Assembly (NCBI GenBank): GCA_002707025.1
Contig: PALG01000031.1
Span: 62,001 to 126,000 of the forward strand
DNA length: 64,000 nt
Origin: Flavobacteriaceae bacterium
GTDB lineage: Bacteria; Bacteroidota; Bacteroidia; Flavobacteriales; Flavobacteriaceae
Direction of reading: 5' to 3'
In this document: piece by piece, positions 651 to 22,693 of the stretch
Numbering within the stretch: position 1 is the stretch's first letter
Layout: each line of letters opens with the position of its first letter
The notes under the pieces: generated by a model
What the model saw: the letters and a program-made list of their open reading frames with translations, nothing else
Databases searched by the model: none
What the model was told of the DNA's origin: nothing
Translations under genes and position numbers: made by a program

Positions 651-3041
651 TCAAAGAGTTTCTTTTTTCGCAAGCTTTTTCCCAATAAAATAAGTCGCTA
701 CTGTAGTAAAAACCACAATACTGATAGAGCTTAAAGGCATTAAAATAGCAGCCACTACGGGGGAAAGATTTCCGGAAACGGCAAAGCTTAACCCAATAAG
801 ATTATAGATAAGCGAGAGCACAAAGCTCCATTTAATAATCTTCATTCCCTTTTTAGAGATTTGGAAGAAATCGGTTAAATTTTGAAAACGGGAAGCATCC
901 AAAATGCCGTCGCAAGCCGGAGAGAAAACATTCACATTTTCAGAAATAACAATTCCCACATCACTCTGCGCCAAAGCCCCGGCATCATTCAATCCATCCC
1001 CTACCATCATCACTTTTTTCCCTGATTTCTGAAGGTTTTTAATATACTGAAGCTTATCATCGGGTTTTTGTTCGAAGAGCATTACGGCGTGCTTCGGAAG
1101 GATCATTTGTAACCTTTCCCGTTCCCCGTCGTTATCCCCAGAAAGGATAACCAGCTTCTTGTCTTTCCCCAATTCCTGAAAAACTTCCATTAAGCCCTTC
1201 CGATAGGTATTTTGAAAAACGTAGCGTCCTTTATAACCATCGTTGCTACTTACATAAACCGAGGTTTCATTGGTCTCTTCCAAGCTTTCTTTTTGCGCTT
1301 CCACAAAAGAAGCTGCCCCAATTTTCAATTGTCGGTTTTTATGGGTGGCCAAGATACCTTTACCGGTCACTTCCTCAAAAGAGTCGAGAGTGGTGATATT
1401 GTTTTTATTCAACAAGTCGTACAACGCTCTACTTAAAGGATGGTTGGATGCCCGAAGGGAGCTTGTTAACACGGCAGACTCTTCTTCGGTTAAAGGAATT
1501 CCTTCATAGATAATTTTACTTTTTTGATGGGTGGTAATGGTTCCGGTTTTATCAAATACCACGGTATCTACCTGAGCCATTTGCTCAATGATGTAAGATT
1601 CCTTTAAATACAATTGCTGTTTTCCGAAGATGCGGAGCAAGTTGCCGAGGGTAAAGGGAGACGCTAAGGCAATCGCGCATGGGCAAGCCACAATTAATAC
1701 TGCGGTAAATACTTGAAAAGCCTTGGAAGGATCGACTACTAACCAAAATAAGGTGGCCAAAAACGCCAAACTTAACACCCCAATGGTGAAATTTTTACTA
1801 ATTCTATCTGTAAGGGATTGAAATAGATGCTGTTTGTTGGTAGAAAATACTTCATTGCTCCACAATTGTGTGAGATAGCTCTGCTCCACCCCTTTCATGG
1901 CTTGTACTTCAATAATACCCCCCTCCTGTCTTCCGCCGGCAAATAACTTATCGCCCGAATCCTTATGTACCGGCACGGCTTCGCCTGTCACAAAACTGTA
2001 ATCGATCAAAGCGTCACCTTTTAAAAGAATAGCATCCACGGGAAGCAGTTCCTTGTTCCGAACGAGCAACCGATCGCCAGGAAGGACTTCGTAAATAGGA
2101 ACCTGTTCTTCAGAATGGTCTTCCTTGATACGGGTAATAGCAATAGGAAAATAAGACTTGTAATCCCTTTCAAAAGAGAGATACGAGTAGGTTTTTTGCT
2201 GAAAAAACTTTCCGACGAGCAAAAAGAACACCAAGCCTGTAAGACTGTCGAAAAAACCCGTTCCCCAATCCATCACGATCTCCAGAGTACTTCTTAAGAA
2301 CAACACCAAAATCCCTAAGGCAATGGGAACATCGATGTTCAATATTTTGGAGCGAAGGCCCTTGTAAGCTGAAATAAAATAATCTTTAGCCGAATAGAAC
2401 ACCACTGGTACCGAGTAGGCAAACATTAACCAACGGAACAGGTGTTTGAAGCGATCCAACCAAAACTCTTCTACCTGAAAATATTCGGGAAAAGAAAGAA
2501 ACATGACATTCCCGAAGGCAAATCCTGCAATTCCTAATTGATAAATAAGGGTTCGGTTCACTTGTTTCTTTTTTTGATCGGCATTTTCCAAAGAGATGTA
2601 GGGTTCGTACCCCAAACGGGCTAAAAGCGTAACGAGTTCTTTTAAGGAAACTTCTTCGGAAGCATAGGTGATGCGCACGGTTTTCTTCGGAAAATCTACT
2701 TGAGAGGTTCGTACGCCCGCATTCAATTTTTGAAGGTTTTCCAATACCCAGATACACGAACTACAGTGAATGGAAGGGATTAAAAAAGAAACAATCTTAA
2801 TATCGCCATCATGAAACTCGAGCAGTTTTTCGGCAATACTTTCATTATCCAGAAAATCGAATTTACCATCTACTTCCCCTGGGGAAATACCCGGAGTGCT
2901 TTCCAAATCGTAATAATAGGAAAGATCGCTTTCGTGTAAGATATCGAAAACAGTAGCGCAGCCTTGACAGCAAAAAGATTTGTCCTTATGTTTAATCTCC
3001 TTGTCATCGCAAGGATCGCCACAATGATAGCATTGAGCCAT
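651..3041 (-). CDS. ccoI: Heavy-metal P-type ATPase CcoI (copper exporter for cbb3 assembly)
   Basis: P1B-type ATPase that delivers copper for maturation of cbb3 oxidase; 796 residues, inner membrane. In order: a cysteine-rich N-terminal metal-binding domain (C4, C7, C11, C24, C25, C28) typical of CcoI/FixI, an HMA domain with CSSC (C93, C96), membrane helices, the actuator TGEAVP motif, the CPC copper site in VACPCAIAL, the phosphorylation motif DKTGT, HPLS, and the hinge GDGLNDAGAL. All catalytic motifs are intact. It sits directly upstream of ccoS-ccoN with a 63-bp gap that holds a second operator promoter. Its own promoter is at 3065-3107. Confidence 0.95.
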   Translation of the reverse strand: MAQCYHCGDPCDDKEIKHKDKSFCCQGCATVFDILHESDLSYYYDLESTPGISPGEVDGKFDFLDNESIAEKLLEFHDGDIKIVSFLIPSIHCSSCIWVLENLQKLNAGVRTSQVDFPKKTVRITYASEEVSLKELVTLLARLGYEPYISLENADQKKKQVNRTLIYQLGIAGFAFGNVMFLSFPEYFQVEEFWLDRFKHLFRWLMFAYSVPVVFYSAKDYFISAYKGLRSKILNIDVPIALGILVLFLRSTLEIVMDWGTGFFDSLTGLVFFLLVGKFFQQKTYSYLSFERDYKSYFPIAITRIKEDHSEEQVPIYEVLPGDRLLVRNKELLPVDAILLKGDALIDYSFVTGEAVPVHKDSGDKLFAGGRQEGGIIEVQAMKGVEQSYLTQLWSNEVFSTNKQHLFQSLTDRISKNFTIGVLSLAFLATLFWLVVDPSKAFQVFTAVLIVACPCAIALASPFTLGNLLRIFGKQQLYLKESYIIEQMAQVDTVVFDKTGTITTHQKSKIIYEGIPLTEEESAVLTSSLRASNHPLSRALYDLLNKNNITTLDSFEEVTGKGILATHKNRQLKIGAASFVEAQKESLEETNETSVYVSSNDGYKGRYVFQNTYRKGLMEVFQELGKDKKLVILSGDNDGERERLQMILPKHAVMLFEQKPDDKLQYIKNLQKSGKKVMMVGDGLNDAGALAQSDVGIVISENVNVFSPACDGILDASRFQNLTDFFQISKKGMKIIKWSFVLSLIYNLIGLSFAVSGNLSPVVAAILMPLSSISIVVFTTVATYFIGKKLAKKETL

Positions 3042-3064: not shown

Positions 3065-3107
3065 CAAAAATGCTTCAGAAGTGGCATTTAAAAAATGATA
3101 ATTGTCA
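3065..3107 (-). promoter_or_regulatory. CRP/FNR-type operator and promoter for ccoI
   Basis: On the minus strand the dyad TGACAATTATCA (3096-3107) is followed after 23 bp by CATTTTTG (3065-3072), one mismatch from TAnnTTTG. The predicted start is near 3060, about 20 nt before the ccoI ATG. It lies back to back with the operator serving the divergent usp gene. Confidence 0.72.
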
Positions 3108-3127: not shown

Positions 3128-3170
3128 TGAGGAAAATCATACGAAATCCGCAAATAGCGCTGTATATTTA
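3128..3170 (+). promoter_or_regulatory. CRP/FNR-type operator and promoter for the first usp gene
   Basis: The weaker dyad TGAGGAAAATCA (3128-3139) keeps only the outer TGA/TCA but has C before and T after like the other sites. It is followed after exactly 23 bp by TATATTTA (3163-3170). The usp ATG is at 3191. Its spacing, rather than its sequence, argues that it is a real site distinct from the ccoI operator. Confidence 0.62.
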
Positions 3171-3190: not shown

Positions 3191-4003
3191 ATGAAACGTA
3201 TTTTGTTGCCAACCGACTTTTCAGAAAACTCCTTAAACGCAATTCATTATGCCCTTACGTTTTTTAAGGGAATTCCTTGCGAGTTTTGCTTTCTGAACAT
3301 TCAGAAACCTTCGGAATATGTGACCGGCGAAATTTACACTTCTTCTCCTACCGAGAGTACGATTTACGATTCGGTAGCAAAGGATCATAAAGAAAAACTG
3401 AATGAACTTGTACTCCGTTATGAAAAAGAATATGAACAACAGCCTTTCACATTTGATAGTATTTTTGATTTTGATGTGTTTGTAGATGCGATTCAGCAAG
3501 TGGTGAATACTCGAAGTATCGAGCTAATTATCATGGGTACCAATGGGGCTACCGATGCTGCTGAAGTTTTGTTTGGCAGTAATACCTTAAAAGTTATTAG
3601 AAACGTGAACTGTCCTATTTTGGCGATTCCTGAAGGCTTTCAATACCAGCAGTTTGCTTCGGTTTTATTTACCTATAAAAAAGAAGATGAATTTCATCCC
3701 GATGCATTAAAACCTTTAGGCGATTTAATTAATGGAAAAACCGTTTCGTTGGAAGTGCTTTGCGTGGACAATCACAAAGAACTTCCTAAAAGCGATGTGC
3801 TTAACTTGTTTTCTGAAGTTAACTACCACGAAGTAGATGGCGTGCCCACTCCTGAAGCAATCAATAGCTACGAACAACTCCTCCCCGTAGACATGCATAC
3901 CATTTTTGTAAAACCCAAATCCTTTTTCCAGCGCATTTTTTCGGGAAGTGATGTTCCCAAAATAAGTTATGAAAGTAAGGTGCCGCTTTTGGTACTAAAA
4001 TAG
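3191..4003 (+). CDS. Universal stress protein, tandem UspA domains
   Basis: Cytoplasmic universal stress protein of 270 residues. It starts with the MKRILLPTDFS signature of the family. The first UspA domain (about 1-150) keeps the nucleotide-binding pattern G-2x-G-9x-G-S in MGTNGATDAAEVLFGS. The second half (about 155-270) has the fold's hydrophobic rhythm but no such motif. It is transcribed alone, divergently from ccoI, and both face their own operator. Tandem-domain USPs of other bacteria bind ATP or AMP and act in energy-starvation survival; the specific role here is not known. Confidence 0.92.
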   Translation: MKRILLPTDFSENSLNAIHYALTFFKGIPCEFCFLNIQKPSEYVTGEIYTSSPTESTIYDSVAKDHKEKLNELVLRYEKEYEQQPFTFDSIFDFDVFVDAIQQVVNTRSIELIIMGTNGATDAAEVLFGSNTLKVIRNVNCPILAIPEGFQYQQFASVLFTYKKEDEFHPDALKPLGDLINGKTVSLEVLCVDNHKELPKSDVLNLFSEVNYHEVDGVPTPEAINSYEQLLPVDMHTIFVKPKSFFQRIFSGSDVPKISYESKVPLLVLK

Positions 4004-4057: not shown

Positions 4058-5428
4058 TTAAACCAAAACCTCCACTACATCGTGCAGTTTAGGAATGCTA
4101 ACATTCCAACCATAGGTTTCTTTTACCTTTACTCGAAGAGCATCACTGGCCGTTGGTTCTCCATGAATTAAAAATACCTGCTCGGGGATATTCTTGATTT
4201 CACTTGCCCATTGTAGTAAATCACTTTGGTCTGCGTGTGCCGACAAACTTTCCAAATGATGGACTTTGGCCTTAACCGGATAGTATTTTCCAAAAATTTT
4301 CAACTCATGGGTACCCTCCAGTAGCTGTCTTCCTCGGGTTCCTTCAGCTTGAAAGCCAACCAATAAAATCTTCGTACTAGGTTTACCTATTAATTGCTTA
4401 ACATATGTAAGCACCCTTCCGCCGGTCACCATGCCACTTCCAGCTATGACCACCTTAGGCCTTGGATCATCAATGGTTTCCCAGGTTTCCCTATAGGAAG
4501 TAATGATGTGCATGCGCTTTTTTAAAGCGTTAATTTGTGAAGAATTTAAAAGATGCCATTTCGGAAAAAGCGCAAACACGGAAGTTACATTATTACCCAT
4601 TGGGCTATCCACAAAAATTGGGATGTTGGGAATTTTGTTCCCCTGATACAGTTTCCATAAAAGGTACATCAATACTTGCAGTCTTTCCACGGCAAAAGAA
4701 GGAATAATCAAAGTACCTCTATGATGGATTACCTCATGAATAAGGGTTACCAAAGTTTCAGAAACCCGCTCTTCGGGATGTCGCTTATTTCCATAGGTAC
4801 TCTCCATAAAGAGATAGTCGACCCACTTTGGCTTATCAGGAGGAAACAACAAAGGATCTTCCTTTCTACCAATATCCCCAGAAAAAACAAAGATTTTATC
4901 AAAGATCTGTAGCTCTATAAAAGTAGCTCCAATAATATGACCGTTGTACCGAAAGCGGCATTGCATATGTTCAGATAGGGAAATCCAATCCTCCTTTTCA
5001 ATGGTCTTAAAATGTTTTAAGGTTTCTTCTACGGCCTTTTCATCAAAAAACGGCAAGGCAGGTTGGTGGGAGGAATATCCTTCCTTATTGGCCTTTTCGG
5101 CTTCCTCCATATGGATTTTAGCACTATCCCTTAAAATAATTTCTGCAATACCCATAGTAGGGGCGGTTCCCAAAATTTTTCCTTGAAAGCCCTGTTTTAG
5201 TAATCTTGGCAAATACCCTACATGATCCAAATGCCCATGCGTAAGCAATACATAATCTACGGTGGCTACCGGAAAAGGAATCGGTTCCCAATTTTGAAGC
5301 CGTAGTTCTTTGAGTCCTTGAAATACCCCGCAATCGATCATGATATTCGCTTCTGGGGTTTCCAATATAAATTTAGATCCCGTAACGGTTCCCGAGGCGC
5401 CTAAAAAATGAATTTTTACAGTTCTCAT
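4058..5428 (-). CDS. MBL-fold beta-CASP RNase-like hydrolase
   Basis: Metallo-beta-lactamase fold hydrolase of the RNA-processing (CPSF73-like) group, about 456 residues. The metal motif is LLTHGHLDHVGYL (HxHxDH). A beta-CASP insert follows, and the C-terminal RMMBL part carries SLSAHADQSDLLQW. Related bacterial proteins are zinc-dependent RNases. The ATG at 5426-5428 gives MRTVKIHFLGASG, the usual family start, 2 nt after the upstream stop; an in-frame ATG at 5443 would overlap the upstream gene. It is the last gene of a five-gene operon usp-usp-usp-(ATP-cone nuclease)-MBL. Substrate is inferred from family only. Confidence 0.88.
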   Translation of the reverse strand: MRTVKIHFLGASGTVTGSKFILETPEANIMIDCGVFQGLKELRLQNWEPIPFPVATVDYVLLTHGHLDHVGYLPRLLKQGFQGKILGTAPTMGIAEIILRDSAKIHMEEAEKANKEGYSSHQPALPFFDEKAVEETLKHFKTIEKEDWISLSEHMQCRFRYNGHIIGATFIELQIFDKIFVFSGDIGRKEDPLLFPPDKPKWVDYLFMESTYGNKRHPEERVSETLVTLIHEVIHHRGTLIIPSFAVERLQVLMYLLWKLYQGNKIPNIPIFVDSPMGNNVTSVFALFPKWHLLNSSQINALKKRMHIITSYRETWETIDDPRPKVVIAGSGMVTGGRVLTYVKQLIGKPSTKILLVGFQAEGTRGRQLLEGTHELKIFGKYYPVKAKVHHLESLSAHADQSDLLQWASEIKNIPEQVFLIHGEPTASDALRVKVKETYGWNVSIPKLHDVVEVLV

Positions 5429-5430
5429 AA

Positions 5431-6255
5431 TTAGGAATGACAAATTGCGTTGATATCTTCCAAAATTCTTGCTTTTCTATTTTCTGAAATCCCTAAATGG
5501 TCTAAATAAAAATCATCCTGAATCAATTGCCTGCACAGTACTACGTTTCGGGATAAAAGAAATTGTTTTTCACGTTTACTCAACAAGGTAGAAACTGTAA
5601 TAGGGTACAACGACAATCGGTCAATGCGATCCTTCAAAGCATCTCCCTTAGGGTAGTCCCAACTCAACAAATACAGTCCAGAGCACTTCCCATAATCCAT
5701 GGCATCCTTGGTAAACTGTGTGTTTGTTACCACCCATCCTTCATTTGGCGATCGCTTTCTTTCGAAAGCTAAAATATCCCGATACCGGGAATGAATGTAT
5801 AAGGGCACTTTAACATCACATTTCCTGGAGGGATCGCTATGAAACTTACACTCGGCGACAATATATTGCTCCTTCTTTTGAGCTACCACATCTACTTCAT
5901 GCGTAACGCATTTTCCACGAAACACTTGCCCTACGCCTGTTTCATATCCTGAATATTGTAATAAAGCAGCAATAAATTTTTCAAAAGGAAATCCTGTAGG
6001 GCCCAATTCATACAACGCATTTTTCAGTTTGTATTTTGATGCAAAAACCGTTTTTTTCTTTTTCAACAATGCAAATGCCCTATGATAGATCTCCTTGGTA
6101 GAGATTCCTTGATACAATTCATCCCTAACCGTATTTACAATTTGTTTGATGGTAGCTGTATCGGCCCCACTACGCTGTAAAGAATTACGCAACTTTTCAA
6201 TAGAGAAATGTGCTCGTTTTCCTGAGGCCTTGACAATTTCAATAGGTGCTTCCAT
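5431..6255 (-). CDS. ATP-cone domain fused to a PD-(D/E)XK (Mrr-like) nuclease domain
   Basis: 274 residues in two parts. Residues 3-90 form an ATP-cone, the nucleotide-sensing domain of ribonucleotide reductases and NrdR (start IEIVKASGKRAHFSIEKLR). Residues about 90-215 resemble restriction endonuclease type IV/Mrr, with a D122 ... E135-C136-K137 active-site pattern. The C-terminal tail (215-274) is unassigned. This suggests a nuclease gated by ATP/dATP levels. It lies between usp genes and a beta-CASP RNase-like gene, with 2-nt gaps on both sides, so it is tightly co-expressed. Catalysis is inferred from motif residues; a non-cleaving binding role is possible. Confidence 0.85.
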   Translation of the reverse strand: MEAPIEIVKASGKRAHFSIEKLRNSLQRSGADTATIKQIVNTVRDELYQGISTKEIYHRAFALLKKKKTVFASKYKLKNALYELGPTGFPFEKFIAALLQYSGYETGVGQVFRGKCVTHEVDVVAQKKEQYIVAECKFHSDPSRKCDVKVPLYIHSRYRDILAFERKRSPNEGWVVTNTQFTKDAMDYGKCSGLYLLSWDYPKGDALKDRIDRLSLYPITVSTLLSKREKQFLLSRNVVLCRQLIQDDFYLDHLGISENRKARILEDINAICHS

Positions 6256-7975: not shown

Positions 7976-8821
7976 TTATCTTGATAAATTTTGTAATACT
8001 AAAAATGGGATTTGGGTTCCTAAGCCAAAGGTTTCTATCTTGGAGGTTTGCAACAGGTTTTCAAGATAGGAATGTCTGGAATTCACCATGACCAGCATAT
8101 CTACTTGGTTGGCATTAATAAATTCGTGAATGGTTTCAGAAATATTTTTCCCAGAAACATGGATACTTTCATAGCGGCATGGCTCTAATGAATTCTCTAG
8201 AAAAGCTTTGTGATCTTCTTGTCGAATTGATAGCTTCTCAAACTTTGAAACATATAATAAAGTAAGCTTTGCTGCAAAGTTTTTAGCCAAACAGCTCAAT
8301 AGCTTCAGTTCTCTTTTTTGATAGGGTACTTGATAATCTGTTGCCAACACAAGGCTTTTCAAATCTATTTCAGTAAAACAACACGGAACGGCTAGCACCG
8401 GTGATTTCACATACCTAATAACTTGAAGTGTTTGACTTCCAAAGGTTACTTCCTTACTATTGGAAGCCCCTTGAGTTCCCATTGCCACAATATCCATATT
8501 CTCGGCTTCCACCAAATCATTTACTACATCGACCAACGATCCAAAAACAGCTTTAGGGATAATCTGGTGTTTAGGATTGGGGGCAAACTCCTTGATTTTG
8601 GCAAGAAATGTTTCGAAAGAACGCTCTGTTTGCTGCTTTTTTTCTTCCTTAACTTCCTCAAAACGAGCCCTTGCCTTAATGGCTTTATCTTCATATACTT
8701 CATCGGCATAGGCATGTACGATAAATATTTCACTTTTATCATATTTAAAAAGCTCCAAGGCACAACGGGTGGCATTCATGGAGTTTTCAGAAAAATCGGT
8801 AGGAATCAATATCTTTCTCAT
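7976..8821 (-). CDS. Universal stress protein, tandem UspA domains (first gene of operon)
   Basis: 281 residues from the ATG at 8819-8821, giving MRKILIPTDFSENS; an ATG two codons earlier (8827) is an alternative. The first domain has MGTQGASNSKEVTFGS (intact nucleotide motif); the second has NSRHSYLENLLQTS instead. It heads the five-gene operon running down to 4058. The promoter with dyad 8875-8886 and -7 box 8844-8851 is just upstream, giving a leader of about 20 nt. The role within the operon is inferred to be stress or energy-state signalling. Confidence 0.91.
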   Translation of the reverse strand: MRKILIPTDFSENSMNATRCALELFKYDKSEIFIVHAYADEVYEDKAIKARARFEEVKEEKKQQTERSFETFLAKIKEFAPNPKHQIIPKAVFGSLVDVVNDLVEAENMDIVAMGTQGASNSKEVTFGSQTLQVIRYVKSPVLAVPCCFTEIDLKSLVLATDYQVPYQKRELKLLSCLAKNFAAKLTLLYVSKFEKLSIRQEDHKAFLENSLEPCRYESIHVSGKNISETIHEFINANQVDMLVMVNSRHSYLENLLQTSKIETFGLGTQIPFLVLQNLSR

Positions 8822-8843
8822 AATCATGCTTTATTTCAATATA

Positions 8844-8886
8844 GAAATTTACAAATAGTTTGAAAGACAAAGCATGATAAATATCA
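8844..8886 (-). promoter_or_regulatory. CRP/FNR-type operator and promoter for the usp-ATP-cone-MBL operon
   Basis: On the minus strand the dyad TGATATTTATCA (8875-8886) stands 23 bp before TAAATTTC (8844-8851). C precedes TGA and T follows TCA. On the plus strand no -7 box lies at this distance, so the site points towards the usp operon and not towards the small gene at 8954. Confidence 0.75.
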
Positions 8887-8953: not shown

Positions 8954-9187
8954 ATGAAAAATTTAGGAATTCCACTACTTATAGCTACCAGTATACTCCT
9001 CTTAACATTGGTGATTTTTTCAAGCCTCAACATTTCTTTTGCTTGGGTTTACGTCCTTACGGTGGTAGGGCAATTTCTTTTGGTGTTCACGGTTTATAAA
9101 ATCCTTACAGATGATTACACCACCGATAAAACTTTTGATGATTTTTACGAAGATTATCCCATAGGGAAAATAAAGGATCATTCGTGA
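8954..9187 (+). CDS. Small two-helix membrane protein, unknown function
   Basis: 77 residues, not recognised. Two transmembrane helices (about 5-27 and 32-50) are followed by an acidic, aspartate- and tyrosine-rich tail (DDYTTDKTFDDFYEDYP) of about 25 residues. Its 3' end overlaps the 3' end of the convergent usp gene by 10 nt, so the two messages can pair. A possible -7 region TAGGTTTT lies at 8928-8935. Its location inside the usp island suggests a link to respiration or stress, but nothing in the sequence proves it. Confidence 0.7.
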   Translation: MKNLGIPLLIATSILLLTLVIFSSLNISFAWVYVLTVVGQFLLVFTVYKILTDDYTTDKTFDDFYEDYPIGKIKDHS

Positions 9188-10014
9188 AGCACTAAAAAGG
9201 GGATATCGGTATGATAGCTAATCTTTGCAATCGTTGGCTTAAAAAGTAAACGCTGAAAGAAATTAAGATTTTTACCAACCATCGCGATAATATTAACGCC
9301 CATGGAGTCTATGAACTCTTGAAGCCCTTTTTCTAGTTCTGGACTTTGAATCCAATGAAAACTATGGTTCACTTCTTGAAGTGAACTACTCAAAAAATCA
9401 CGGTTTTTAATTTGGTCATCTTCAAGCTTACTCCCCTTTCTTACCACCCGCAAAATCTTTAAAGAAGATTCGTGGTAAGAGCTAAACTCTTTTAAGGTTT
9501 TGATAATTTTATCTTTATATAGAATATTGAAATCGGTTGGAAACGCCACACTTGCTGGGGTTTGATAGGCTGCTTTTTCGGGAATGACCAAAGTAGGGCA
9601 TTTAACCCTGGTTATCACAGCTCCTGCATGACTTCCCAAAGTAGCTTCTTTAATTCCGGATGCCCCTTTGGTTCCCATGATAATTAAATCGATATCATGC
9701 GCTTTTACGTATTTCCGGATGCCCTCAATAAATAAGGAACTTTCAAAGTGCAAGTGGATGGTATGCTCATGGTGGGGATAAAGGTTATCAATTTTCTCTT
9801 TGAGTTCTTCTAGCTTTTGAAAGGCCCCTTTGGAAAGTAGGTTCGATACAGAAATACCCTGTGGATGAAGGTTTTTATCATTTTCAACCATTCCACTAAT
9901 TCCTAAATGCAGGAAATGAAATTGCAGTTTCTCGCCCTTAAAAAAGTGCAAGGCATAGGCAATGGCATTCCATGAATTCTCGGAAAAATCTGTTGGAAAC
10001 AGAATTCGTTGCAT
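9178..10014 (-). CDS. Universal stress protein, tandem UspA domains
   Basis: 278 residues from the ATG at 10012-10014, giving MQRILFPTDFSENS. A longer in-frame ORF starts at 10050, but that ATG lies upstream of the predicted transcription start (near 10029), which argues against it. The first domain has MGTKGASGIKEATLGS, an intact nucleotide motif, followed by HA instead of NT. The second domain lacks the motif. It is transcribed alone from its own operator promoter, downstream of the regulator gene. Confidence 0.9.
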   Translation of the reverse strand: MQRILFPTDFSENSWNAIAYALHFFKGEKLQFHFLHLGISGMVENDKNLHPQGISVSNLLSKGAFQKLEELKEKIDNLYPHHEHTIHLHFESSLFIEGIRKYVKAHDIDLIIMGTKGASGIKEATLGSHAGAVITRVKCPTLVIPEKAAYQTPASVAFPTDFNILYKDKIIKTLKEFSSYHESSLKILRVVRKGSKLEDDQIKNRDFLSSSLQEVNHSFHWIQSPELEKGLQEFIDSMGVNIIAMVGKNLNFFQRLLFKPTIAKISYHTDIPFLVLHE

Positions 10015-10032
10015 ACTTTCCATTTTCTGCTT

Positions 10033-10075
10033 CAAAAATAGGTGTCGCAACGAGGGTAAAGAATGACTTTTGTCA
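10033..10075 (-). promoter_or_regulatory. CRP/FNR-type operator and promoter for usp
   Basis: The best match of the set. On the minus strand the perfect palindrome TGACAAAAGTCA (10064-10075) stands 23 bp upstream of a perfect -7 box TATTTTTG (10033-10040). It lies only 10 bp past the stop codon end of the regulator gene, in the short gap between that gene and usp. Confidence 0.8.
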
Positions 10076-10084
10076 GTTTTGAAA

Positions 10085-11128
10085 TTATTCCATATGCTGA
10101 AGGGCTTCCAGTCTTAAAATACGGATGTTTCGGCCTTCAATTTCGATAATACCTTCCTTTTTGAAACCCGATAAAGTTCGAATCAAGCTTTCGGTAGCGA
10201 TGCCTGCCACATTAGCCAAGTCGTAACGTGAAATCTTAATACTGTCTTCCGGCTTCTTATTCATTATTTTAGCAAATTGAAGGATGGTCTGTGCTGTTTT
10301 TTTCCGTACCGAACTATAGGCCATCTGCAGTAGCTGTTGTTTTATTTCTGAAAGATTTTCCGTGAGCACATTGACCAACTCTAAAGTAACATCCTTACTC
10401 TTTCCCAAGATATCCCTTAAATCCTGTTTTGAAATAGCAGCCAATTCTACGTTTTCCACTGCGGTAGCCGACTCTTGGTAAGGCATATTCTCTTCAAAGG
10501 AAGTAAATCCGAGGAAGTCGTCTGGTTTGTACAAAGCCGTAATCAATTCCTTACCGCTCTCCTCCATTTTATGGGTTTTTACGATGCCTTTCAGAATTAA
10601 AAAAACATAATTGGAATGCAAGCCTTCTTCGTAGATGGACTCCCCTTTTTTAAACTGAAGAATTTCCCCATTATCATCAAAAAAATTTTTGAGTTCATTT
10701 AGATTTCGCAACGAATCCTCTGCTTCAATTACTTCGGTCTTCTCCAAGGATTCCAAAATCTTGGCTTTGGCAATCCTACTTTCAATGGCACTCAACAATT
10801 CCTCTTCTTCAAAAGGCTTCGTGAGGTAATCATCGGCCCCCATATCCATTCCCTTCCGAATTTCCTTATGTTCTGTTTTTGCCGAAAGAAAAATGAAAGG
10901 AATAAACCGGGTTTCCTCTTTTTGCGAAAGGGCTTCCAGAACGCCATAACCATCTACCTCGGGCATCATGATATCGCATATAATAAGATTGGGATGCAAG
11001 GATACGGCTTTATCTATCCCAACCCTCCCGTTAGGAGCTACCGTTACCTCATACCCAGAGAGTTCTAGCAGTTCGGCCGTATTTTCACGTAAAGCAATAT
11101 CGTCTTCAATTAAGAGAATGGTTTTCAT
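10085..11128 (-). CDS. Receiver domain fused to CRP/FNR-type transcription regulator
   Basis: 347 residues. The receiver domain (1-120) has the acidic pair E8-D9-D10, phosphoacceptor D52 and K104. A linker follows, then a cyclic-nucleotide-binding-like sensor domain (about 145-260) and a CRP winged helix (about 265-340). The recognition helix has E313-S-L-I-R317; FNR and CRP use this Glu/Arg pair to read the GA of TGA half-sites. No N-terminal cysteine cluster exists (only C51), so it should not sense oxygen through an Fe-S cluster as FNR does. It follows its kinase gene by 10 nt. It probably activates the dyad promoters of this region when phosphorylated. Confidence 0.92.
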   Translation of the reverse strand: MKTILLIEDDIALRENTAELLELSGYEVTVAPNGRVGIDKAVSLHPNLIICDIMMPEVDGYGVLEALSQKEETRFIPFIFLSAKTEHKEIRKGMDMGADDYLTKPFEEEELLSAIESRIAKAKILESLEKTEVIEAEDSLRNLNELKNFFDDNGEILQFKKGESIYEEGLHSNYVFLILKGIVKTHKMEESGKELITALYKPDDFLGFTSFEENMPYQESATAVENVELAAISKQDLRDILGKSKDVTLELVNVLTENLSEIKQQLLQMAYSSVRKKTAQTILQFAKIMNKKPEDSIKISRYDLANVAGIATESLIRTLSGFKKEGIIEIEGRNIRILRLEALQHME

Positions 11129-11138
11129 GGTTGTTTTA

Positions 11139-12362
11139 TTAATGAGCCCAAGGAATTTCTATAGCAAAAGTACTACCCTTATCTTCTTCGCTCTCAAAAG
11201 TAATATCCCCGCCTAGGTTTTCCAAATGGCTTTTGGCTATGTTGAGGCCTATTCCAGTTCCTTGATTCAATAAAGCATTTTCGGCCCTAAAATAGCGTTT
11301 AAAAATAAATTTTTGTTCTTTTTTGGGAATCCCGATTCCTTCGTCAGAAATTTTAATAATGATGTTTTTTCCCTTCGGAAGCACCAAAATATCAATACTT
11401 GTTTCTTCTGGAGAATATTTAATGGCATTATTTACCAGGTTGGTCAATACCAATTCCAGTACCTTTTCATCAAAATTAATCTCTATGTCGTCTATTCCCT
11501 CGGGATAGTTAATAATTTGCCCTTCTTTTAAAAGCATATTGGCATTGTAGACAACTTCATTAATAACCTTACTGAGAGGGAATTGGGTGATTTTATAATT
11601 TACCTTACCGGTTTCCAAACGTTCTACCGAAAGGAAATCATCTAAAATATTATTCAAGTATTTTACCTTACTGGTAATCGTTTTGATGTGCTTTTCACGT
11701 TTTTCCTGTTGTTCTTCTTTAACATACTTCCCTATAAGGTTGGAAGACGTTAAGATTCCGCTTAATGGAGTTTTAAACTCGTGAGAGACCAAAGAAAGGA
11801 ATTTGGTTTTCAAGTCATTGAGCTCCCGCTCTTTTTTAAGCGATTCCTTCATTCTGTTTTCGGCTTCTTTTCGACGCTCAATTTCGGTTTCCAACTGCTT
11901 TATGGTTTGCTTCAAATCCTTGGTTCGTTTATGAACCATATACTCCAGTTCGTCATTTAACTCCTTCATTTGGCGTTCCTGCTCCTTCCGCAAGCTAATA
12001 TCGATGACCATAGCCATGACACATTGCTGGCCATTGGCCAAAAAAGGTTTTAGTCCTACCTCAACCGGAAATTGCGAACCGTTTTTTCGTACCCCAAATA
12101 ATTCCCGTCCTTGCCCCATAATTCGCTTTTCCGAATGATCCATAAAATGATCTACATGGTGGGTATGGGCTTGGTGGTATTTTTGAGGAATTAATAGACG
12201 AAGTGGTTGATCGATCAATTCTTCCTTCTCATAGCCAAAAAGCTGTGCCAAGGTTTCGTTCACGGTCACCATTTTTTGTTGGGAATTTACGATGACTATT
12301 CCTTCTGAAATGGTTTCAGTAAGAAGGTTAAAGACGTCCTTTTCTTTGTCGCGAAAGTCCAT
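11139..12362 (-). CDS. PAS-domain sensor histidine kinase, FixL-like
   Basis: 407 residues, no transmembrane segment, so cytoplasmic. In order: PAS (about 12-125), coiled coil (125-185), HisKA with phospho-His194 in SHEFKTPL, and HATPase with N311/N312 in LVNNAIKYSP, DEGIGIP at 340 and GTGIGLNIAKSHL near 370. The PAS domain has H66 and R86, 20 residues apart, in a context close to the FixL heme pocket (IMGQGRELFG before RKNGSQFP). FixL His200 and Arg220 have the same spacing. Heme binding is therefore plausible but unproven, as non-heme PAS domains can share this motif. The partner is the adjacent receiver-CRP fusion. Confidence 0.9.
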   Translation of the reverse strand: MDFRDKEKDVFNLLTETISEGIVIVNSQQKMVTVNETLAQLFGYEKEELIDQPLRLLIPQKYHQAHTHHVDHFMDHSEKRIMGQGRELFGVRKNGSQFPVEVGLKPFLANGQQCVMAMVIDISLRKEQERQMKELNDELEYMVHKRTKDLKQTIKQLETEIERRKEAENRMKESLKKERELNDLKTKFLSLVSHEFKTPLSGILTSSNLIGKYVKEEQQEKREKHIKTITSKVKYLNNILDDFLSVERLETGKVNYKITQFPLSKVINEVVYNANMLLKEGQIINYPEGIDDIEINFDEKVLELVLTNLVNNAIKYSPEETSIDILVLPKGKNIIIKISDEGIGIPKKEQKFIFKRYFRAENALLNQGTGIGLNIAKSHLENLGGDITFESEEDKGSTFAIEIPWAH

Positions 12363-12399: not shown

Positions 12400-12442
12400 T
12401 GATTTATATCATAAAACAAGTTACTTTCTGCTTGTATCTTTA
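12400..12442 (+). promoter_or_regulatory. CRP/FNR-type operator and promoter for the TerB-like-trx-deo operon
   Basis: On the plus strand TGATTTATATCA (12400-12411) stands 23 bp before TATCTTTA (12435-12442). C precedes TGA and T follows TCA only in this direction, so the site points to the gene at 12463 and not to the divergent kinase. The kinase side has a TACATTTG at 12367-12374, almost at its start codon and with a different spacing. Confidence 0.73.
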
Positions 12443-12462: not shown

Positions 12463-12867
12463 ATGACTCCTTCAGAAAACACCCAACTTTCCTTTTATCA
12501 AAAAGCAGGAGAACTTTTTTATACCGTTGCCGCCGCAGATGGGGTCGTGCGCAAAAAAGAGTTTCAAGCCCTTAAAAAAATGGTGAAGGAAGAATGGAAA
12601 GATCTTGATGACTTCGAAGATGAGTTTGGGGTTGATGCGGCGCATCAATTGGAAATCGTGTTCGACTGGTTGGATTATGAAAGCCTAGATGCAGAAGAAT
12701 GCTTCGAAAGTTTTGAAGACTTTTACAAAGAGCACCCTACTCTTTTTTCAAAAAAAAGGAAAGACCTTATTTTAAAAACCGCACATGCGATTGCCCATGC
12801 CTTTGCTGGAAAAAATAAAAGCGAGCTCATCGTGCTTGGAAAACTACAATTACTTTTTAACCGTTAA
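12463..12867 (+). CDS. TerB-like protein
   Basis: 134 residues, cytoplasmic, mostly helical and acidic. It resembles the TerB (tellurite resistance) fold: helix 1 with the AAADGVVRKKEF pattern of the TerB N-terminal loop, and a C-terminal helical bundle. No signal peptide. TerB-like domains bind metal ions or act as stress-response adaptors in other systems; the function in stand-alone copies is not established. It is the first gene of an operon controlled by the dyad promoter at 12400-12442 and is 2 nt from the next gene. Confidence 0.75.
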   Translation: MTPSENTQLSFYQKAGELFYTVAAADGVVRKKEFQALKKMVKEEWKDLDDFEDEFGVDAAHQLEIVFDWLDYESLDAEECFESFEDFYKEHPTLFSKKRKDLILKTAHAIAHAFAGKNKSELIVLGKLQLLFNR

Positions 12868-15461: not shown

Positions 15462-16298
15462 TTACATTTTTATGGTCATTACTGGTAAATCGGAATGGTT
15501 GACCAAGTCTTCACTTATGCTTCCGGAAAAGAAGTGAGCCAATCCTCTACGACCATGGGTAGGCATAAAAATAGCATCCGCTTTTACTTCATTGGCATAC
15601 GTAAAAATACCTTCTTCGATATTGTAAGCATTGTAAGTATCTACATCCTTAATATGGTACTCTTCATCGGCTTTGGCTTCCAATAAAAATTGTAGGATCC
15701 GGTTGTGCATTTCTGGAGTGCTTCGGAAACCATCGCCAGGAGTATTCACATAAACCAACTTCATTTTAGCCCCTAAAACATTCAAGAGATTTTTTGCCTT
15801 TTTGAATACATTGACGGCTTCCAGGTCGAGGTTGGAAGCAAATACCACATTTTCCAGACTGAAATCCTTGGCTTTGTGTTTAATTACCAGTACAGGGATT
15901 TCTGAAGTACGGACCACTTTTTCAGTATTGGAACCTACAAAAACCTCTTTTAGGCCACTACTACCATGGGATCCCATGACGATTAAATCGCATTTAAATT
16001 CTTGGGCCACACTGTTAATTTCATTAAAGTGTTTGTAATTTTGCACGGTAGTTTCTACAGAAACTCCATCCAAATATTCCTTATCCAGAAATTCGTTAAA
16101 TCGTTTTTCGGCCAGTTTCATATAAAACATGGCTTCCATCATTTCTTTGGATTCCTCTTTATTGATAACGGCTTCCGAAAGTCCCATCATGTGTAAAGCA
16201 ACAATGGAAATATCATATCTTTTAGCCAATTGGGAGGCAACTTCCAAGGCATAGTCTGAATGTTCAGAAAAATCGATAGGTACTAGAATTTTTTTCAT
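15462..16298 (-). CDS. Universal stress protein with two recognisable UspA motifs
   Basis: 278 residues starting MKKILVPIDFSEHS. Unlike the other five paralogues of this window, both halves keep a glycine motif: MGSHGSSGLKEVFVGS in the first domain and MPTHGRRGLAHFFSGS in the second (first glycine replaced by proline). It may thus bind nucleotide in both domains. It lies 16 nt downstream of the hibernation-factor gene and shares its dyad promoter at 16642-16684, so a stalled-ribosome response and this stress protein are made together. Confidence 0.92.
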   Translation of the reverse strand: MKKILVPIDFSEHSDYALEVASQLAKRYDISIVALHMMGLSEAVINKEESKEMMEAMFYMKLAEKRFNEFLDKEYLDGVSVETTVQNYKHFNEINSVAQEFKCDLIVMGSHGSSGLKEVFVGSNTEKVVRTSEIPVLVIKHKAKDFSLENVVFASNLDLEAVNVFKKAKNLLNVLGAKMKLVYVNTPGDGFRSTPEMHNRILQFLLEAKADEEYHIKDVDTYNAYNIEEGIFTYANEVKADAIFMPTHGRRGLAHFFSGSISEDLVNHSDLPVMTIKM

Positions 16299-16314: not shown

Positions 16315-16617
16315 TTAGTGATTGGCTCGAAAGGTTACTTCCTTTCTTTTCTTTAGTTGTTTTTCCAAATCGGAAATAGTTTGCTTCACTGCCAGCTCAA
16401 AATTTTTCTCCGTAGAAGAAGCAAAAATCTTAGGGCCAGGTAAACTTAGTTCCATTTCGCAGGTTTTTTCTTGGGTCGCATTGTTTTCGGTTTTAAAAAA
16501 AACATCGGCATGAATTACCCAACTATATTTGGACGATAGTTTGTTTAATTTCTCGGTCGTGAATTGTGTAAGAGCCTCACTGGTAGGCATTTTTACGAAT
16601 TGAATATCTGAAGTCAT
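16315..16617 (-). CDS. hpf: Ribosome hibernation-promoting factor family protein (HPF/RaiA)
   Basis: 100 residues; short HPF/YfiA type without the C-terminal dimerisation domain. Features visible: an alternating beta strand with DIQFVKMPTSEAL, the KLNKLSSKY helix, the LPGPKIFASS strand and the closing helix FELAVKQTISDLEKQLKKRKE. Such proteins bind the 30S decoding region and inactivate ribosomes in stationary or energy-poor cells. It is the first gene of a two-gene operon with usp and is driven by a dyad promoter, placing translation arrest under the same control as cbb3 oxidase. Confidence 0.87.
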   Translation of the reverse strand: MTSDIQFVKMPTSEALTQFTTEKLNKLSSKYSWVIHADVFFKTENNATQEKTCEMELSLPGPKIFASSTEKNFELAVKQTISDLEKQLKKRKEVTFRANH

Positions 16618-16641
16618 TACTCGGGCTTTTTAATTTCATGA

Positions 16642-16684
16642 TAAAATTACAACCCTTGCGTTTCTTAAAATATGACGATGGTCA
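16642..16684 (-). promoter_or_regulatory. CRP/FNR-type operator and promoter for hpf-usp
   Basis: On the minus strand TGACCATCGTCA (16673-16684) stands 23 bp before TAATTTTA (16642-16649). C before and T after the dyad are present. The dyad begins a few bases past the T-run of the neighbouring terminator, a very compact arrangement. Confidence 0.74.
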
Positions 16685-16687
16685 GTT

Positions 16688-16721
16688 CCAAAAAAAAGCC
16701 AAGCAATATTGCTTGGCTTTT
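16688..16721 (-). terminator. Terminator of the SQR-TusE-DsrE operon
   Basis: Fully self-complementary hairpin with arms AAAAGCCAAGCAAT / ATTGCTTGGCTTTT (16694-16721). On the minus strand it ends in a T-run, followed directly by the hpf operator. It lies just past the DsrE-like gene stop. Confidence 0.88.
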
Positions 16722-16734
16722 CAAAATACCATGT

Positions 16735-17208
16735 TTAAATAAACAGGAGATGCGTATCTTCTTGGTCGGCCCGATTATAAAAATCGCCAATGGTTAAAAT
16801 ACCGTCCAGCTCCTCAATAAGGTCTTCTCTTTTTAAATGAAACATATCTACCGCCAATTTACAGGCCCAAAGCTTGCATCCAGAATCGGAAAGGATTTCC
16901 AAAAATTCCCCAACGGGGGGCATATCCAATTTCTCCATTTCCTTTTTCATCATTTTGGTAGCTAGGGCTTCCACACCAGGTAACCCTCCTAACATGGTGG
17001 GCATGTGCATGGCCGGATTTCCAACCGTGGCTACGTGTAAATGTTCCAATTTTTTCTTCTGAATGGCTTCCAACCCAAAAAAGGTAAAGAATATTTCAGA
17101 TTCGATGCCTTCCATTCTTGCGCCATTGGCCATTACAAAAGCAGCATACACATTTTCAAGGGTGGCCTTGGATAAAATGAAGAGCATCTTTTTTACTTTC
17201 GTACTCAT
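16735..17208 (-). CDS. DsrE/DsrF-family sulfur-transfer-like protein (DsrE2 type)
   Basis: 157 residues, cytoplasmic. The N-terminus (KKMLFILSKATLENVYAAF) and the SGCKLWACKLAVDMF segment with C110 and C115 fit the DsrE2/peroxiredoxin-like DsrE family; the latter cysteine is at the position used for persulfide carriage. A methionine- and proline-rich middle (MHMPTMLGGLPG) is typical of this subgroup. It follows the TusE-like gene by 17 nt and ends the operon. It would accept sulfane sulfur generated upstream and pass it to TusE; this is inferred from families and context. Confidence 0.82.
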   Translation of the reverse strand: MSTKVKKMLFILSKATLENVYAAFVMANGARMEGIESEIFFTFFGLEAIQKKKLEHLHVATVGNPAMHMPTMLGGLPGVEALATKMMKKEMEKLDMPPVGEFLEILSDSGCKLWACKLAVDMFHLKREDLIEELDGILTIGDFYNRADQEDTHLLFI

Positions 17209-17225
17209 AACGTTTCATTTTTAAC

Positions 17226-17534
17226 TTAAATACAGCTTTTAGGTTTAGGGATTCCAGCAATCAAGGTGGCTTTCTTTAAAGGCCCTCCAGGAAAGAGGCT
17301 ATAAAACTCCTTGATATCCAAAACCCCACTTTTCTTAATTCCCCGAATAGATAGGGGCTCTTCATTTTGATATTTATCATGGATATAGTCGATCACCTCC
17401 CAGTGACGGTCGGTCATATCGATTCCGTGTTCTTGGGCAAGACTCTCCCCTATGGCTTTGTTCCATTGATTAAAATCGGTTAAATAGCCTTCCTCATTAA
17501 CTTCTATTTCGGTATTTGCGATGATCTTTTTCAT
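17226..17534 (-). CDS. tusE: TusE/DsrC-family protein with a single C-terminal cysteine
   Basis: 102 residues. The DsrC fold is clear: the DFNQWNKAIGESLAQEHGI start, the RHWEVIDYIHDKY helix and a C-terminal arm after FPGGPLKKA. The penultimate Cys101 (CysA) is present, but the second DsrC cysteine, 11 residues earlier, is Thr90. By the published DsrC classification that makes it TusE-like, a sulfur carrier that cannot form the intramolecular DsrC trisulfide bridge. No dsrAB is nearby. It sits 10 nt after the SQR-like gene. Confidence 0.87.
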   Translation of the reverse strand: MKKIIANTEIEVNEEGYLTDFNQWNKAIGESLAQEHGIDMTDRHWEVIDYIHDKYQNEEPLSIRGIKKSGVLDIKEFYSLFPGGPLKKATLIAGIPKPKSCI

Positions 17535-17544
17535 GGTTTTAATT

Positions 17545-18801
17545 TTAAGATGAAACTTCTTTTACTTTTTCAAAATTTTTGCCTTTTTCAGACATGGTAG
17601 CTGAAACAAAAGGAATGTGTATTCCCTTGATGAGCATGTTCCAATAAATCCACCGGAAAGCCATTTTCCCCATATGGTTGGCCCTGCTCTCCTTCAATAA
17701 TTTTAAGGGACCAATACCTGGCAACGGGAAGGTTCCCTCAACGGGTTCATGGGTATAATTGAAATCGATTAAAAGGGCTTTGCCATTTCCTGTTTCAATA
17801 AAGCAGTTGGCATGACCATCAAACTCTTCTTTTAAAGGCTCCCCTTTGATGTACCGGAGAATGTTTTCGGTTAAAATTTCGGCTTCAAAATGAGCCACCG
17901 AACCAGCTTTCGAAGCCGGAAGGTTGGTAGCATCCCCAATGGCAAAAATATTTTCATGTTGCTTGGTTTGGAGCGTTGCTTTATGGGTTGGCACAAAGTT
18001 TAAATCGTCCCCCAAACCAGAACGTTCGATTAGGGAGTCCCCCATATTGGTGGGCACAGTGACCAATAAGTCGTAGGGTACTTCCACATCGGCATAATCG
18101 ATAATTCTCTTGCTTTCATAATCTACCCGCTCAATATTAAAATCGGTAACTTCTTTAATGTTTTTTTCCTCCAAAAGATAATGAAGGGCTTCAGTAGCCT
18201 TCGGTTTGGTAAAAGCCCCTCCCAAAGGAGTTACGTAGGTAATCTCTACTTTGTCCCGCATTCCTTTGTGTTTAAAGTAAGAATCGGCTAAAAAAGCAAA
18301 CTCTAAGGGAGCCACAGGACACTTTATCGGCATTTCGGTGATGTGCACCACCAATTTACCCCCTTCCCAGTCCCGTAGCTTGTCGCGAAGGGCCAAGGCT
18401 CCTTCAAACGTGTAAAAATCGAAAATAGATTGGTACCATTCTGGACCCTTCATCCCTTCAATTTCCTCGGGAGCGATCTTCGTTCCTGTAGCTATGATGA
18501 GGATGTCGTAAACTACTTCCGTTTCATCCTCCAGTAGTACTTGATTGGTTTCAGGTACGATACGCTCAATCCTCTTCTGAATATAGCGAACCCCTTTCGG
18601 AATAAACTTTTCCCCTTTCTTTTTTACCTGACTAGGTTTGTAAATATCAAAAGGAAGAAATAGAAAGCCCGGCTGGTAATAGTGGGTTCTATATTGATCG
18701 ATAATGCTAATGTTCCAGTTCTCCTTCGGAAGCTTATGAACCAAATGATTGGCCATCATGGTTCCAGAAGTCCCAGCGCCTAAAATGACTAGATTTTTCA
18801 T
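17545..18801 (-). CDS. Sulfide:quinone oxidoreductase-like FAD flavoprotein
   Basis: 418 residues. Rossmann FAD motif GAGTSGTMMA (8-17), second dinucleotide motif ATGTK (104-108), and the FAD-binding GDATNLP (289-295). C161 (IKCPVAPLEFAF) and C333 (ANCFIETG) align with the two redox cysteines of sulfide:quinone oxidoreductases; the third cysteine of type I enzymes is not seen. The C-terminal part (about 370-405) has amphipathic stretches that fit membrane attachment. Likely reaction: sulfide oxidation to sulfane sulfur with electrons to the quinone pool. First gene of the SQR-TusE-DsrE operon, under a dyad promoter. Confidence 0.85.
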   Translation of the reverse strand: MKNLVILGAGTSGTMMANHLVHKLPKENWNISIIDQYRTHYYQPGFLFLPFDIYKPSQVKKKGEKFIPKGVRYIQKRIERIVPETNQVLLEDETEVVYDILIIATGTKIAPEEIEGMKGPEWYQSIFDFYTFEGALALRDKLRDWEGGKLVVHITEMPIKCPVAPLEFAFLADSYFKHKGMRDKVEITYVTPLGGAFTKPKATEALHYLLEEKNIKEVTDFNIERVDYESKRIIDYADVEVPYDLLVTVPTNMGDSLIERSGLGDDLNFVPTHKATLQTKQHENIFAIGDATNLPASKAGSVAHFEAEILTENILRYIKGEPLKEEFDGHANCFIETGNGKALLIDFNYTHEPVEGTFPLPGIGPLKLLKESRANHMGKMAFRWIYWNMLIKGIHIPFVSATMSEKGKNFEKVKEVSS

Positions 18802-18856
18802 GGCTTTTAGAATTTCGACTTACACAAAACTTTATCTAAGTCCTTATTATTCAATA

Positions 18857-18899
18857 TAAAATTACTGCTACAGCCTTCTAAAAACTATGATATTGGTCA
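18857..18899 (-). promoter_or_regulatory. CRP/FNR-type operator and promoter for the SQR-TusE-DsrE operon
   Basis: On the minus strand TGACCAATATCA (18888-18899) stands 23 bp before TAATTTTA (18857-18864). T follows the dyad; A instead of C precedes it. The leader to the ATG at 18801 is about 50 nt. Confidence 0.72.
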
Positions 18900-22650: not shown

Positions 22651-22693
22651 CAAAACTACTAGGGAAAAAGTTGATAAATAATGACATTTATCA
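22651..22693 (-). promoter_or_regulatory. CRP/FNR-type operator and promoter for yceI-porin
   Basis: On the minus strand TGATAAATGTCA (22682-22693) stands 23 bp before a perfect -7 box TAGTTTTG (22651-22658). T follows the dyad; A precedes it. This is the last site of the set in the window. Confidence 0.75.

Follow-up and report, generated by a model that had tools for sequence, protein, structure and literature searches.

The window analyzed here is a 64,000-bp stretch (C31:62001–126000) of the draft genome of a marine flavobacterium (3.05 Mb, 99.93% complete, 33 contigs). On its minus strand lie an ORF for a soluble sensor histidine kinase (11139–12362) and, starting 10 bp after the kinase gene ends, an ORF for a receiver–CRP fusion regulator (10085–11128); an ORF check placed both exactly where a sequence-only reading of this DNA had put them. 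The conserved downstream neighbor of the regulator, identified by Pfam and locus comparison, is a universal stress protein gene (9178–10050, minus strand). The window also holds several universal stress genes and ccoI, a ccoI/fixI-type P-type ATPase gene assigned by profile matches (651–3041, minus strand) and a predicted target of the regulator. The fused ccoNO, ccoP, ccoG, and hemN are found immediately beyond the window edge. A bacterial genome search returned 80 loci (62%–82% identity), with names mostly from Flavobacteriaceae. The pairing of kinase and regulator, a claim of the sequence-only reading, was borne out, the kinase adjoining the fusion gene in 79 of these 80 related flavobacterial loci. 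A stress-protein gene nearly always came next after the fusion gene, and cco and hemN were present too at several of the loci. The fusion was present in 21 of 146 Flavobacteriales genomes drawn. As a separate observation, a beta-CASP nuclease gene (377 bits against a type VII Cas14 model with a cut-off of 800) adjoins an ATP-cone/Mrr-type nuclease gene at 4058–6255, and the pair is kept in the stress island of many relatives.

Pfam domains confirmed that receiver and CRP regulator form one protein (Response_reg, 1.4e-27; cNMP_binding, 1.7e-18; HTH_Crp_2, 1.5e-12), and the CRP part, a cNMP-type jelly roll and a Crp winged helix, matched CRP structures by fold. AlphaFold gave the expected receiver and CRP folds, with no reliable domain arrangement. 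The phospho-acceptor D52, correctly named beforehand, the acid pocket E8/D9/D10, and P105 were each found in 81 of 81 sequences, and S82 and K104 were also invariant in a 21-sequence alignment; all residues expected of a response-regulator receiver (acid pocket, Asp, S/T, and Lys) are thus present. The features of the CRP/FNR superfamily were likewise found, namely the jelly roll, C-helix, Crp winged helix, and E..R recognition residues; within the recognition segment TESLIR (E313..R317), E313, I316, and R317 occurred in 81 of 81 sequences. Conserved cysteines (Fe–S cluster ligands) were not found in the CRP part among the 81 sequences, 35 of which had no cysteine there, 38 one, and eight two. 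The cAMP-contact residues of the jelly roll were absent as well: the positions that, by our reading of the CRP motif, correspond to the E. coli CRP contacts E72 and R82 hold F208 and E219, the latter invariant in the 21-sequence alignment. The receiver matched CseB (1.4e-25) and PhoB (1.8e-24) much more closely than FixJ (4.5e-17; 62 bits against a cut-off of 255) and scores as an OmpR/PhoB/CheY-type domain, not as a FixJ-type one. The OmpR/CheY-like receiver led us to reject a literal FixJ–FixK fusion, meaning a protein that descends from those two, and a literal compression of FixJ and FixK into one protein is not supported. The comparison across Flavobacteriales points to replacement of FNR instead.

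The partner kinase consists, by Pfam, of a PAS domain (residues ∼14–123, with H66 and R86 inside), a HisKA domain with H194, and HATPase_c. Compared with all solved chains, the PAS was closest to Sinorhizobium meliloti FixL (1d06, 1e-15), E. coli DosP (4e-13, with further weaker hits), and Bradyrhizobium japonicum FixL (1e-9). Next came a multi-sensor kinase whose ligand is not stated (5e-8) and, well below it, the PAS of a citrate sensor kinase (5e-4). All strong named solved matches were heme sensors, and the alignments to FixL and DosP, as printed, had no gaps across the heme pocket. H66 aligns with the proximal heme histidine of established FixL biochemistry (His200, B. japonicum numbering), and R86 with the distal arginine (Arg220). 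The histidine was conserved in the kinases of 79 out of 79 relatives and the arginine in 72 (absent in seven). Where relatives have tandem PAS domains, the second lacks the heme-type histidine, so the PAS domains of these kinases do not carry this residue as a rule. More distant receiver–CRP fusions in two other Flavobacteriales groups have partner kinases with a FixL-type PAS (one was tested, 4.9e-31 to FixL), some of them without the arginine or without the histidine. A structure model of the kinase was set aside as evidence because its heme pocket had a pLDDT under 50. The FixL-like character proposed for the kinase is supported by the resemblance of its PAS and by both heme-ligand residues; we infer that the PAS binds heme, and the kinase is probably a heme oxygen sensor.

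We searched for operators without bias, counting every inverted repeat of 4 or 5 bases within the intergenic DNA of the 80 loci, with expectations derived from coding DNA. The most enriched repeats were TGATA-N2-TATCA (81 observed vs. 0.2 expected), TGAC-N4-GTCA (75 vs. 1.2), and TGAT-N4-ATCA (176 vs. 7), giving a dyad consensus of [AC]TGAY-N4-RTCA[TG] (profile A/C-TGAY-AWWT-RTCA-T/G). In 130 of 134 occurrences, the Bacteroidetes −7 box, TAnnTTTG, started exactly 23 bp past the dyad; the 11 downstream occurrences of a control motif showed no preferred position. The dyad center is 29.5 bp from the first T of the −7 box. Class II CRP/FNR operators are centered at −41.5 in E. coli, and the placement of the dyad matches this class II spacing. 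In the window, 12 TGAYNNNNRTCA were counted against 3.8 expected, and composites (dyad plus −7 box at 23 bp) numbered seven against 0.10; neither count was reached in 100 shuffles. The whole genome contained 16 composites and none of the reversed pattern.

The sequence-only reading had ascribed CRP-type sites to nine promoters of the island, which we take to be the dyads at 636, 3096, 8875, 10064, 12400, 16673, 17368, 18888, and 22682. This stood in most respects, as dyads exceeded chance and eight of the nine lie upstream of genes. The remaining one, 17368, is inside the dsrC ORF, lacks a −7 box at the required distance, and was rejected as a promoter site. On the minus strand, a class II composite at 605–647 (dyad 636–647, −7 box 605–612) precedes an operon reading into ccoNO. 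Others, on the same strand, precede ccoI (3065–3107, one mismatch in the −7 box), the stress-protein genes 7976–8827 (8844–8886, one mismatch) and 9178–10050 (10033–10075), the gene for a ribosome hibernation factor (16315–16617, Ribosomal_S30AE) followed by a stress-protein gene at 15462–16298 (composite 16642–16684), a sulfide:quinone reductase–DsrC–DsrE gene run from 18801 to 16735 (18857–18899), and a YceI-like/porin-like pair from 22653 to 20693 (22651–22693). The dyad 10064–10075, singled out by the sequence-only reading, is downstream of the receiver–CRP gene and part of the promoter of the stress-protein gene 9178–10050. The composite search added two sites to the original nine, one on the plus strand ahead of the stress-protein gene 3191–4003 (3128–3170) and one ahead of hemN just outside the window. 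Also on the plus strand, the composite at 12400–12442 is in class II register for a divergent ORF (12463–12867); this ORF, of 134 aa and with no Pfam match, is beside the kinase in 65 loci. Toward the kinase promoter the spacing from the same dyad is 25, not 23 (24–26 or undetected in most relatives), so direct autoregulation of the kinase–regulator operon is not supported, and class II autoactivation through this dyad was rejected. Outside the island, two sites had a close gene behind them, one ferredoxin-NADP-reductase-like and the other DoxX-like (named by inspection). The hibernation factor and the sulfide:quinone reductase–DsrC–DsrE run (16315–18899) share their operator type with cco, which suggests that dormancy and sulfide oxidation may be part of the low-oxygen response.

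The dyad did not prove exclusive to genomes with the fusion: it was enriched in fusion-less genomes as well, which pointed to a stand-alone FNR. These genomes encode a CRP of about 230 aa that stands alone. Its Flavobacteriaceae examples have conserved cysteines (N-terminal CxxC, VCxIP) and are encoded a few kilobases from ccoN, and those from another family (f4) are without the N-terminal cysteines. Its recognition helix reads GTATES-x-IR, compared with GIATESLIR in the fusion. About half of the fusion genomes also retain FNR, and dyads there may therefore be FNR's. The cco-type FNR is absent from 24 of 50 fusion genomes, and in these the dyad was counted 159 times against 43 for a control. 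In their loci (up to 21 kb), composites numbered 113 and the reversed pattern 0, with a composite at every ccoNO promoter captured (4/4). In two genomes with no cco and no cco-type FNR (loci L187 and L188), kinase, fusion, stress genes, and operators are nevertheless retained, the circuit outliving the oxidase. A PF00027 search of the window genome returned four proteins. Besides the fusion, these were an HTH-less CBS/nucleotidyltransferase-like protein, a short CRP of 194 aa, and a 209-aa CRP whose gene lies next to a TauE-like gene. The sequence-only reading had named an additional FNR/CRP protein as one that might account for the dyads; a stand-alone FNR of the cco-linked type was sought among these four cNMP-domain proteins and not found.

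Two genomes of one genus (g3) appear to capture the exchange of one regulator for the other. The gene order is FNR, ccoI, one gene, hemN, operator, ccoNO in G026 and kinase, fusion, one gene, ccoI, hemN, operator, ccoNO in G057, so that the FNR gene and the kinase–fusion pair share one seat beside ccoI. Across the swap the ccoNO operator kept both its dyad and its 23-bp spacing, with the caveat that G057 encodes another Cys-rich CRP with an E..IR helix. The shared recognition helix, the composites kept where FNR is absent, and the same-seat swap together indicate that the fusion very probably took over the operators of FNR, with control moving to the FixL-like kinase; the comparative evidence in this way supports the proposed link between regulator and dyads. 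In a tree of CRP parts, the fusions grouped separately from the stand-alone FNRs (support for the group 34/99, 1 change; deep order uncertain), and the window clade (20 rows) had a support of 100/100. From this separation we take the fusion to be old, with a single origin not secured. The distant receiver–CRP fusions L182, L183, L192, L193, and L194, which also have FixL-type PAS kinase partners, carry an FNR/FixK-like ETVSR helix, so their operator may differ from that of the same cell's FNR. We lean toward extending the replacement to a large part of Flavobacteriaceae, in which the class II operators would have stayed the same while a phosphorylation-controlled FNR relative, driven by a heme PAS kinase, succeeded the cysteine-type FNR there, one protein serving as both response regulator and FNR/FixK.

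Domain make-up, conserved residues, gene pairing, dyads, their fixed spacing, and the absence of FNR are read directly from the genomes, and they suggest the following circuit. At low oxygen, the heme in the FixL-like PAS would be in its deoxy form and the kinase active, phosphorylating D52 of the receiver–CRP protein. The phosphorylated protein would dimerize on the dyads, centered at the would-be −41.5, and directly activate the promoters of cco, ccoI, hemN, the stress proteins, the hibernation factor, and the sulfide:quinone reductase–DsrC–DsrE run. It would stand in the place of the stand-alone FNR, with the same recognition residues and operators but with phosphorylation as its input rather than cysteine-based (probably Fe–S) sensing. 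The fusion alone would very probably switch on the low-oxygen respiration and stress genes, as the stand-alone FNR does in relatives. What we infer here are the heme and its oxygen ligand, the phosphotransfer, the binding to DNA, and the direction of regulation, activity at low oxygen being deduced from the functions of the targets and the FixL precedent. To the model as a whole, from heme-PAS kinase to activated low-oxygen promoters, we assign a probability of roughly two in three.

The regulator could run this regulon through the dyads while the PAS senses something else, such as a flavin, a quinone/redox signal, or heme that binds NO or CO. The ligands of PAS domains are diverse, the resemblance of the window PAS to FixL is no more than moderate (1e-15 to 1e-8), several relatives have a second PAS, and the more distant partner kinases can lack Arg or His. 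But H66 is invariant and R86 nearly so, the strong named solved matches are all heme sensors, the second PAS of tandem kinases lacks this very histidine, and the predicted targets are low-oxygen genes; we regard a different signal as unlikely, though not far-fetched.

Two other readings concern the dyads. Another CRP/FNR protein of the genome might bind them, leaving the fusion with different targets: the dyad is enriched without the fusion too, where a stand-alone FNR is its likely binder, and contig C18 encodes a short CRP-like protein whose E..SR helix (TESLSR) could bind related sites. However, the HTH of that protein is shortened, it lacks a Cys cluster, nothing links it to cco, and none of the four cNMP-domain proteins is a cco-type FNR. 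Moreover, composites persist ahead of the stress genes beside the fusion in G076 and G133, which have neither a cco-type FNR nor cco, making a separate binder quite improbable. The fusion might also be an antagonist, competing for FNR-type operators and acting as a repressor when oxygen is present, given that sequence alone does not set the sign of regulation and that fusion and FNR coexist in about half of the genomes. We find this scarcely credible, as the window genome has no FNR left to antagonize and the dyads sit at the activator position, where sites are not expected to persist without an activator.

Activation by the phosphorylated fusion would make oxygen control testable as a circuit in a major group of marine bacteria. 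It would also represent a natural experiment in network evolution, in which the operator set stays constant and a two-component relay takes over the sensing from a cysteine-type FNR; genomes of all three states (FNR only, both, and fusion only) exist. The operator and its promoter spacing would predict the regulon in other Bacteroidetes too.

We found no description of a receiver–CRP fusion of this kind in the open full-text literature, subscription papers not being covered. FNR/Anr and, within Flavobacteriales, the stand-alone Cys-containing FNR resemble it in CRP fold, E..R helix, class II placement, and cco and hemN targets, whereas the fusion has a receiver domain instead of cysteine ligands, and its operator is flanked by A/C where the classical anaerobox has T. 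In the DosST–DosR dormancy regulon of Mycobacterium tuberculosis, heme kinases likewise go together with a hibernation factor and numerous universal stress proteins, but the kinases are GAF heme kinases and the regulator is of the NarL type. FixL–FixJ–FixK of rhizobia and FixLJ–FixK of Burkholderia share with the window pair a PAS heme-type kinase, a CRP/FNR-family output, and cco and stress-protein targets (PMC9104804, PMC6127331). In the window, one receiver–CRP protein with an OmpR/CheY-like receiver replaces FixJ and FixK, with no transcriptional relay step. A FixK-type regulator has been proposed to control a USP-rich low-oxygen locus in Burkholderia, in work that also mentions the many stress-protein genes of the DosR regulon (PMC6127331). 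In Rhizobium leguminosarum, hFixL–FxkR–FixK and FnrN form two oxygen sensors that converge on one anaerobox type, and FxkR, unlike the fusion, is a separate regulator still acting through FixK (PMC7888657). A similar two-sensor convergence may occur in flavobacteria with FNR as well as the fusion. In NmpRSTU of Myxococcus xanthus, a heme kinase leads to a response regulator acting directly on cco, hemN, P-type ATPase, and stress-protein promoters, though through a protoglobin kinase, a multi-component relay, and an NtrC-type regulator (PMC11841059). FixLJ–FixK, hFixL–FxkR–FixK with FnrN, and NmpRSTU thus use different components to govern genes of this kind.
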